A stretch of DNA of 64,000 bases from Pseudomonas grandcourensis (GTDB lineage Bacteria > Pseudomonadota > Gammaproteobacteria > Pseudomonadales > Pseudomonadaceae). The position numbers and the translations under genes were made by a program. Under the pieces are notes generated by a model. That model was not told the DNA's origin. It searched no databases and was given only the letters and a program-made list of their open reading frames with translations. How positions within the stretch are numbered: position 1 is the first letter of the stretch; each line of letters starts with the position of its first letter. The stretch lies in assembly GCF_039909015.1 (NCBI RefSeq), contig NZ_CP150919.1, positions 5,618,501-5,682,500 on the forward strand, in the 5' to 3' direction. This document shows positions 48,734 through 51,418 of this stretch, piece after piece.

Positions 48734-49903
48734 ATGAATACCGCCGTCAACGCCAACGTAGTGCACGAATCCGAAGCCCAGCGCCAACATGCCCGAGTGA
48801 AAATCCCGGCCAAGTTGCGTTTCTTCGGCCCAGACCGGACGCCGGTCGAAGCCCGGGTGATCGACCTGTCCGCCGGTGGCCTGGCGTTCAACGCCGGTCA
48901 ATTGCCGCTGAAGATGGGTGACGTGTACAAGGCCCGCCTGCAATTCGTCATCGACAACCTCGGCCTGGCCATGGACGTCGAGTTGCAGGTCCGCTCTTTC
49001 GATCGCGAGACCGGACGCGCCGGCTGCCAGTTCCAGAACCTGGAACCACGGGACATCTCGACCCTGCGCCACCTGATCACTTCGCACCTGGCTGGCGACA
49101 TTGTCAGCGTGGGTGAAATGCTGGCGACCCTGCAGCGCGACAATTTCACCAAGGCGCGCAAGTTGAAGGACGGCGGCCACGGCATGACCGCGTTCGGCCG
49201 CATGAAAGCCGTGACCTTCAGCCTGGGGATCTTCGTTGTCGGCCTGGCTGCATTCGGCTTTGTTTTCAAATCGGTGTACGGCATGTACTTCGTCAGCCAC
49301 GCCCAGGCTGGCCTGGTCAGCGTGCCGGGCGTGAACATCACCATGCCCCGCGACGGCACCGTGCAGAGCCTGGTGAAAGCCGACGGCGTGGCCGCCAAGG
49401 GCGCACCGCTGGCGACCTTCAGCACCAGCATGCTCGACGTGCTCAAGGGCCATCTGGACGAAGACCAACTGCAACCGGCCAAGGTTGAAGAACTGTTCGG
49501 CAAGCAGATGACCGGTACCCTGACCTCGCCTTGCGACTGCACCGTGGCCCAGCAAATGGTCGCCAACGGTCAGTACGCCAGCAAGGGCGACGTGATCTTC
49601 CAACTGGTGCCGCGCAACAGCGAAGCCAATGTTGAAGCGCGCTTCTCCTATCGCCAGTTCGGCGACGTACGCCCGGGTACTTCGGTGCGCTTCCAGATCG
49701 CCGGCGAGGACAAGAGCCGCACCGGCAAGATCGTCAGCAGCACCAGCCTGAAAAGCGCCGACCTGTCCTCGGACATCCGCGTGCTGATCCAGCCGGACGA
49801 AACCCTGGACAGCTCCCTCGCCGGCCGCCCGGTGGAAGTGAACAGCGACCGTGGCCCGAACCTGAACTGGCTGATCGACAAAGCCATGGCTGTCGGTCTT
49901 TAA
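48734..49903 (+). CDS. alg44: Alginate c-di-GMP receptor and co-polymerase Alg44
   Basis: 389 residues: cytoplasmic PilZ domain with R17-x3-R21 and D44-x-S46-x2-G49 (DLSAGG), the c-di-GMP-binding residues, at the same positions as in P. aeruginosa; one transmembrane helix (about 160-178); a periplasmic HlyD-like domain. Binding of c-di-GMP turns on Alg8. Ten bases before algK. Confidence 0.97.
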   Translation: MNTAVNANVVHESEAQRQHARVKIPAKLRFFGPDRTPVEARVIDLSAGGLAFNAGQLPLKMGDVYKARLQFVIDNLGLAMDVELQVRSFDRETGRAGCQFQNLEPRDISTLRHLITSHLAGDIVSVGEMLATLQRDNFTKARKLKDGGHGMTAFGRMKAVTFSLGIFVVGLAAFGFVFKSVYGMYFVSHAQAGLVSVPGVNITMPRDGTVQSLVKADGVAAKGAPLATFSTSMLDVLKGHLDEDQLQPAKVEELFGKQMTGTLTSPCDCTVAQQMVANGQYASKGDVIFQLVPRNSEANVEARFSYRQFGDVRPGTSVRFQIAGEDKSRTGKIVSSTSLKSADLSSDIRVLIQPDETLDSSLAGRPVEVNSDRGPNLNWLIDKAMAVGL

Positions 49904-49912
49904 GTCGAGGAC

Positions 49913-51418
49913 ATGCCTGTGACTACTCCAACCCTCAACACGCCGCCGACCCTGTGGGAGCGAGCCAGCTCGCGATGGGATCGACGCGGTCTGTCTGATG
50001 CACCGAGTCGCCTGCTTCGCGAGCAGGCTCGCTCCCACATGGGGTCTCTGTGTGCCGTTGCATTGGCGGTGAGCCTGGCCGGTTGCGCCGGCCTGCCCGA
50101 CCAGCGCCTGGCCAACGAAGCGCTCAAGCGCGGTGACACCACCACTGCAGCGGCGAACTATCGGCAACTGGCAGACCTGGGCTACAGCGAAGCCCAGGTC
50201 GGCCTGGCCGATATCCAGGTCGACAGCCGTGACCCGGCGCAGATGAAACAGGCCGAGGCGACTTACCGCGCCGCGGCCAGCGTTTCGCCGCGCGCCCAGG
50301 CGCGCCTCGGTCGCCTGCTGGTGGCCAAGCCCGGCTCCACCGAAGCGGAACAACACGAAGCCGAAACCCTGTTGAAAAAAGCCGCTGCCGCAGGCGAAGG
50401 CAACACGCTGATCCCGCTGGCGATGCTGTACCTGCAATACCCGCACAGCTTCCCCAACGTGAATGCGCAGCAGCAGATCAGCCAATGGCGTGCCGAGAAC
50501 AAACCGGAAGCAGGTCTGGCGCAGGTGCTGCTCTATCGCACCCAGGGCACCTATGACCAGCATCTGGATGACGTGGAAAAAATCTGCAAGGCCGCGCTCA
50601 ACACCAGCGACATCTGCTACGTCGAACTGGCCACGGTCTATCAGAAACAGGCCAAGCCAGAGCAACAGGCCGAGCTGATCAAGCAGATGCAAGCGGCTCA
50701 TGCCCAAGGCACCGTTTCGGCGCAGCGCGTCGACAGCGTCGCCCGCGTGCTCGCCGATGCGTCACTGGGCAAGACCGACGAGAAAACCGCGCAGTCGCTG
50801 CTCGAACCGATCGCACCGGGCTACCCGGCGTCGTGGGTCACCCTCGCGCAACTGCTCTACGACTTCCCGGAACTGGGCGACGTCGACCAGATGATGAAGT
50901 ACCTGGACAACGGCCGCGCCGCCGACCAGCCCCGCGCCGAACTGTTGCTGGGCAAGCTTTACTTCGAAGGCAAACTGGTGCCGGCCGACGCCAAGGTCGC
51001 CGAAGCGCATTTCCAGAAAGCCGTTGGCCGAGAAGTCGCTGCCGATTACTACCTCGGCCAGATCTATCGCCGTGGCTACCTGGGCAAGGTCTATCCACAG
51101 AAGGCCCTCGACCATCTGTTGACCGCTGCGCGCAACGGCCAGAACAGCGCCGACTTCGCCATTGCCCAACTGTTTTCCCAAGGCAAGGGCACCAAGCCTG
51201 ATCCGCTGAACGCCTACGTCTTCAGCCAACTGGCCCTGGCCCAGAACACTCCGCAAGCCACCGAGCTTGCGCAAACAATCCAAACGCAATTGCCGCCCGA
51301 CCGGTTGGCCGAAGCCCAACGCCTGTTGAAACAAGAACAGGCCGTGCGCGGTGCCCTGAGCCCGAACACGCCGGAAATGCATGCCCTGCAAGAAGAAGAT
51401 GGCGAGGAATCCCAATGA
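49913..51418 (+). CDS. algK: Alginate export scaffold lipoprotein AlgK with REPIN-derived N-terminus
   Basis: 501 residues. The lipobox is L-A-G-C58, so the mature lipoprotein starts at C58 followed by [13 protein letters not shown] as in other AlgK. The rest is a TPR/Sel1-like repeat solenoid (60-470) that helps place AlgE in the outer membrane. The signal region is abnormally long: residues 14-42 ([20 protein letters not shown] then LLREQARSH) are encoded by a REP doublet (49953-50039). The only start with a Shine-Dalgarno (GAGG, 4 bases) is ATG 49913; an ATG at codon 43 lies at the end of the REP and has no such site. The REP-derived part supplies the positive charges of the signal peptide. 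ATGA overlap with algE. Confidence 0.93.
49953..50039. repeat. REPIN inside the algK coding sequence
   Basis: Arms 49953-49975 and 50017-50039 are inverted copies of the common REP (one mismatch in 23), with a 41-base spacer. The whole element is read through in frame in algK without a stop. Confidence 0.93.

Follow-up and report, generated by a model that had tools for sequence, protein, structure and literature searches.

In the stretch of 64,000 nucleotides of Pseudomonas grandcourensis DNA that we analysed (hereafter the window), alg44 (48734–49903, forward strand), coding for a HlyD-like protein with a PilZ domain, is followed on the same strand by algK, whose longest open reading frame (49913–51418) encodes the alginate export lipoprotein with its Sel1/TPR repeats. 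Residues 59–500 of the product align with the crystallised AlgK (3e4b), and the N-terminus, judged by eye and by a charge count, has the parts of a lipoprotein signal: a basic n-region, followed by a hydrophobic core and lipobox (50042–50086, forward), which end at the Cys codon 50084–50086. Two upstream codons come into question as the start of algK: an ATG at 49913, 9 nt downstream of the alg44 stop, and a GTG at 49919–49921, codon 3 of the longest frame and 15 nt downstream of that stop. The Shine–Dalgarno-like (SD-like) GAGGA at 49907–49911 (forward) stands just 1 nt before the ATG and 7 nt before the GTG. Further, among related alleles, L057 and L058 have the GTG at window position 49919 as their only upstream in-frame start (in L058 it is the sole start codon anywhere, upstream or downstream), L073 has an ATG in its place, and L022–L024 and L027 have an ATG at a similar distance, by eye, from the SD-like motif. 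Hence, GTG 49919 is likely to be the start rather than ATG 49913. The earlier note had taken ATG 49913 as the only good start of algK; a start upstream of the element described below is upheld, and its place moves to the GTG. A candidate internal start, ATG 50039–50041 (forward), has no SD-like motif and is missing from many relatives.

Between the favoured start and the lipobox lies an 87-bp REPIN (49953–50039, forward), i.e., two inverted REPs around a 41-nt loop, positioned in frame within the n-region. The left arm (49953–49975, forward) is of the GAGC core type and is read as LWERASSR; the right arm (50017–50039) is on the reverse strand, and its forward strand is read as LREQARSH. The inverted repeat, 80% complementary, extends over arms at 49950–49990 and 50002–50042, and the algK frame is free of stops across the whole 87 bp. 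The REP core, at no more than 3 mismatches, recurs 512 times forward and 518 times reverse in the organism's own genome; since a reversed control pattern gave 0 matches against these 1030, the assignment to the REPs is not a matter of chance. The ORF, the arms and the inverted repeat thus all bear out the claim of the earlier note that a REPIN lies in frame between the algK start and the lipobox Cys. Of 60 other inverted REPINs in a 24% sample of the own genome, 37 have a length of 90 bp, and the 41-nt loop type of the window is rare, the best other loop scoring 0.32 (122 oriented loops, self copy included). The algK element has the inverted, hairpin-capable REPs and the high-copy family in its own genome by which REPINs are recognised, and departs from them in lying in a gene rather than in extragenic DNA. 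As intragenic REPs are among those recorded in PMC3733652, extragenic location can be taken as customary rather than defining, and the algK element is still a REPIN, in an unusual place.

REP content of the algK signal region across Pseudomonas

For comparison we assembled 224 algK loci from Pseudomonas genomes, which reduce to 199 distinct alleles. These are not an unbiased sample: they comprise the best 30 loci from relatives; loci from named species genomes (L039–L092), collected with patterns that included a REP-encoded peptide; the best 30 loci for each of two queries against 398 genus members; and 80 stretches chosen from the match list. The retrieved loci are thus among the best query matches, with 347 of the 398 genomes matching and part of them retrieved. 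All but one of the 199 alleles (198) combine an in-frame start no more than 25 nt past the alg44 stop with a frame that stays open as far as the lipobox; the exception, L030, has an insert ahead of its start. In that allele (genome G012) the alg44–algK spacer measures 337 nt, and a long repeat-like sequence precedes the start of algK, an arrangement opposite to the usual one. As side observations on the sample, in L025 and in G034:C1:2057211-2058715 algK matches as two overlapping pieces (residues 1–158 and 153–500), which points to a frameshift or assembly error near codon 155; and several genomes (G027, G067, G079, G199, G232, G283, G322, G404 and others) have two algK-like matches at E <= 1e-100, the second perhaps representing another alginate-type locus or a paralogue.

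The n-region contains REPs in 150 of the 199 alleles (hereafter filled alleles), is REP-free or nearly so in 44, and is long without a recognised REP in four, L030 being the remaining one. The filled alleles fall into seven main signatures by the order and frame of their REP motifs, which we split by hand into nine classes. Class A, to which the window belongs, is by far the largest with 108 alleles (LWERACSR...REQARSH); class B has 10 (VGAGLARD...AGKPAPT) and class C, with the motifs in reversed order, five (REQARSY...RRSELARE), one of them L067 of P. protegens 14B2, followed by D (9), E (5), F (2), G (2), H (1) and C2 (1). In seven alleles a second REP unit is nested within class-A arms. Class B, too, looks like a later REPIN set within an older class-A element: in our reading of the letters, it is followed by what resembles a remnant of the outer right arm. 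C and C2 may be related to each other, as may E and H. Given how varied these signatures are, REPs have very likely been acquired repeatedly at the algK site, the number of gains being left unfixed because alleles also recombine. Parsimony on an alg44+algK tree gives 53 changes across all classes, and 28 between filled and REP-free states with the four long REP-less alleles excluded; recombination inflates such figures, and hence we rely on the structurally distinct arrangements rather than taking them as a count of events. The n-regions of the four long REP-less alleles (L216, L220, L221 and L228) extend over about 55–75 codons and possibly contain other or decayed inserts.

Loss and exchange are also apparent. 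The short alleles L144, L084, L132 and L142 retain a stub of the right REP arm ahead of the h-region, a REP scar consistent with an in-frame deletion of the REP. L110, from the window's own species, has a nearly identical REPIN, and its sequence diverges directly past the right arm (window 50036–50083), as though recombination had its border at the edge of the REP. L085 is REP-free, and its mature AlgK and its Alg44 are 97–99% identical to the proteins of the window. Its alg44 has 93–97% identity with the window in four sub-windows, and its h-region 94% with L010 of the REP-free clade, 85% with class-A L110 and 73% with the window. By these identities L085 is a mosaic, its alg44 nearest to the window clade and its h-region nearest to the REP-free clade; signal cassettes are evidently exchanged. 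The earlier note had suggested looking for an empty site in the algK 5' ends of relatives. Such alleles as L085 do supply REP-free counterparts, but a precise empty site of 29–30 codons for the window's element was not found among the 199 alleles, the h-region differing as well in L085 and similar REP-free alleles (of the MPVTSPLRILPVPL... type). Likewise, no target-site duplication could be established for the algK REPIN in the allele comparison.

The algK arms can be set against the REPs of their own genomes. In 29 genomes, hand-picked so that all three main class-A arm types are represented, the type found in algK outnumbers the other two in 22 and ties in one (a case that the permutation script scores as a match, giving 23/29). 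The six misses are G002, G019, G011, G264 and G149, all TGGC, and G224, GGGC. The mean genomic share of the algK arm type is 0.68 against 0.36 under permutation, a value reached in 0 of 100,000 permutations (relatedness ignored). Thus, with the arm type usually the genome's most abundant, the algK element tends to track the current REPs of its host, whether via re-insertion, conversion or recombination.

Reading frame, peptide and RNA

A central issue is whether the REPIN is read as protein at all. The alternative would make it 5' untranslated sequence, with AlgK starting downstream (at ATG 50039 in the window) and the upstream frame open by chance. This has some points in its favour: many class-A alleles, the window's included, show an ATG at the REP border; an in-frame start codon at or behind that border is present in 86 of the 150 filled alleles; where genes of the own genome have a REP in an in-frame 5' extension, their starts mostly lie further downstream; and for P. 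putida ORFs, REPs at the 5' end have mostly been judged probably non-coding (PMC3733652). Since the coding score failed to separate algK from untranslated 5' extensions, we turned to comparative evidence. The 90-bp REPINs elsewhere in the own genome, read in the register of class A, are open in just 8 of 74 orientations; of the algK alleles with the same loop length of 44 nt, all 21 are. Taking all lengths, this register is open in 9/120 cases in the own genome (a null matched to 44-nt loops only) and 6/20 in genome G029, against 108/108 class-A algK alleles, which are related and drawn from a biased sample and hence do not amount to 108 independent trials. For the 41-nt loop type of the window the control is weak: the register is open in 76/76 algK alleles and also in 5/8 other copies, six of the eight having been collected for a similar peptide. 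The classes in the other two registers are less telling, as genomic REPINs are often open in these too (60/120 and 81/120). Further, the length of the class-A REPIN is divisible by 3 in all 103 alleles where it could be measured (5 could not), compared to 43/60 in the genome.

The start codons also speak against the untranslated alternative. As many as 64 of the 150 filled alleles lack any ATG, GTG or TTG in the interval from the REP to the last 12 signal codons, even with the border ATG counted as a possible start, which makes read-through of the REP very likely; a downstream start with an SD-like motif is found in only 13 of the 150, an upstream one, by a lenient pattern, in all 150. Moreover, REP-free alleles have the same upstream SD and start, and L030 is the sole exception to the open frame. 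A protein search with the REP-bearing N-terminus returned 19 matches among 208 candidates, 16 of them named AlgK and three unnamed with the same Pfam pair, a result with little bearing on the other registers. Taken together, we regard a downstream start with an untranslated REPIN as quite improbable; the algK REPIN is very probably read as protein, as part of the export signal.

Translation raises in turn the possibility, put forward in the earlier note, that the peptide has been domesticated as a functional n-region. The REP codons are indeed basic, the median net charge of the n-region being +3 in the 150 filled alleles and +1 in the 44 REP-free ones. However, charges of 0 or below occur in 6/150 filled and 4/44 REP-free alleles, and short REP-free n-regions are present in 44 of the 199. 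In the loops of the 76 class-A alleles with 41 nt (61 distinct), pN is 0.273 and pS 0.247, giving a pN/pS of 1.11, with 0.85 and 1.15 in the two other frames. The corresponding values are 0.104 for the first 60 mature AlgK codons (40 of the 76 sequences sampled) and 0.183 for the last 10 codons of the h-region/lipobox stretch (72 sequences), all pooled over pairs with phylogeny ignored. The mean entropy of the loop is also alike at all three codon positions. With neither measure pointing to the amino acids, constraint seems to act on the openness of the frame only, the residues themselves being free. Moreover, unrelated peptides from different orientations and all three frames occupy the same place, and alleles that have lost most of the REP remain open. 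Domestication is hence very hard to credit, and it is the other option of the earlier note, a new leader that is tolerated, that fits the allele comparison.

The element might instead be kept for its RNA, with the hairpin tuning translation or mRNA stability at the alg44–algK junction, as a speed bump, or as an element for differential expression within a densely packed operon, and the peptide being incidental. The fold is certainly strong: the region of the window has an MFE of -97.3 kcal/mol against a shuffle mean of -76.5 (z -4.5), and over 200 nt from 20 nt before the start the median is -101.1 in the 150 filled alleles against -82.0 in the 44 REP-free ones. REPs recur at this single site, their arms stay complementary across changes of type (with identical 12-nt cores in 60/107 class-A alleles), and the silent sites of the loop vary less than those of mature algK (pS 0.25 against 0.43). 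The last point fits a younger or converted element, but also a DNA- or RNA-level constraint. Against this, strong folding is common to any REPIN, and the complementarity of the arms may merely reflect a recent origin or conversion from the genomic pool. Further, the 44 REP-free alleles, which include the near relative L085 and the REP-scar alleles, argue against the hairpin being necessary. It also stays clear of the initiation site: from the start codon to the first REP motif the median distance is 37 nt, and no genuine value is below 24 nt (three values of -1, in L079, L115 and L123, being spurious motif matches). Structure in the 55 nt around the start is slightly weaker in filled (-7.2) than in REP-free alleles (-10.6). 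Regulation of AlgK/AlgE levels by the hairpin, as raised in the earlier note, is possible, and we hold retention of the element for such a role to be unlikely, if far from negligible. A joint version of these ideas would have the n-region as a permanent docking site for the REPINs of the genome, which are swapped by nested insertion, arm conversion and REP-edge recombination, with translation admitting open frames only and the hairpin, as a replaceable speed bump, setting AlgK output relative to Alg44 and AlgE; we would give this only a small chance of being right.

The algK site among REPs and other in-frame repeats

The explanation that we favour, and consider probable on the strength of the allele comparison, is that the algK n-region is a translated, tolerated, frame-filtered and repeatedly rewritten REP site in the cleaved part of a signal. 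Briefly, a REPIN would have come to sit in frame just past the algK start, in the n-region of the lipoprotein signal, and would be translated as an insert of about 30 residues. In lipoproteins the n-region is removed along with the signal peptide. As this part leaves with the signal peptide, the mature AlgK would be unchanged and many different peptides would be tolerated, making the insert nearly neutral, as long as the frame is open and, in most cases, the n-region remains basic. The n-region of algK would thereby be a coding site where REPs persist, though they are otherwise mostly kept out of coding DNA. It would have been filled repeatedly across Pseudomonas lineages, by transposition, gene conversion or recombination, in varied order, orientation and frame, in some cases within older REPs, with the arms following the REP types of the host genome; some lineages would since have lost their REPs, apparently by in-frame deletions.

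Tolerance alone does not explain how often algK is hit. A survey of 1.62 Mb of the own genome, made up of the window and 78 stretches of 20 kb, gave 264 REP-arm matches at no more than 4 mismatches and 348 incidences of a REP in an ORF, 320 of which are in shadow ORFs. Two of the remaining 28 are the algK arms, and the other 26 are mostly 5' extensions of genes with later starts, REPs at the very first codons and short ORFs without a coding score; one internal match among the 26 was judged to be chance. No gene besides algK with a supported start upstream of a REP was found in this sample, where the starts were judged from this one genome, so that algK is only provisionally the sole such gene. 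In the same genome, L285:14169-14410 has four REP arms in an open 5' extension before a signal-peptide-like start (MKRFWRNSLLALTG) with an SD-like motif.

In-frame palindromic elements are already known. The Rickettsia RPEs, as summarised in PMC10969869 (citing Ogata et al. 2000, 2002), are short palindromic mobile repeats that lie in frame in protein genes and are read through. The algK REPIN resembles them, as far as its sequence allows one to say, in being a palindromic repeat that lies in frame, free of stops and very probably read through, in a conserved gene (the frame being open in 198/199 alleles, with the register and length counts as above). However, the RPEs of that account are in many unrelated genes, whereas the algK REPs are at one site of one gene, varied by lineage, in a genus whose REPs are, according to published descriptions, mostly extragenic. 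Intragenic REPs, too, are known in several species, with GTAG and CGTC REPs inside ORFs and different REPs at about the same recB site in two Xanthomonas species among those given in PMC3733652; both features are shared with algK. For P. putida, the authors of that work consider REPs at ORF 5' ends probably non-coding in most cases, and the words algK, alginate and lipoprotein are absent from its main text. Passages of PMC2759123 describe a mobile repeat in a predicted signal peptide of Yersinia and enterobacterial RU/ERIC elements read as protein; in these passages it is a predicted case in one gene, unlike algK, with frame selection or repeated gain at one site not evident. The SBW25 REPINs of P. 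fluorescens (Bertels and Rainey; PMC3116915), inverted REP doublets with a spacer and predicted hairpins, are alike in architecture, but are, in the parts of that paper that bear on the point, defined, counted and modelled in extragenic space, in contrast to the REPIN of algK in coding DNA. The literature searched, as represented by titles, the beginnings of abstracts and some passages, contains no report of REPs in algK.

REPs are generally treated as extragenic, and here one coding site in Pseudomonas carries them repeatedly in different forms. The filter visible at algK, an open frame and a length divisible by 3, makes the site a natural experiment in the entry of mobile repeats into proteins. 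The results also suggest that part of the AlgK N-terminal sequence stored in databases comes from repeats, that closely related strains can have altogether different n-regions, and that the edges of REPs can mark recombination borders inside genes.
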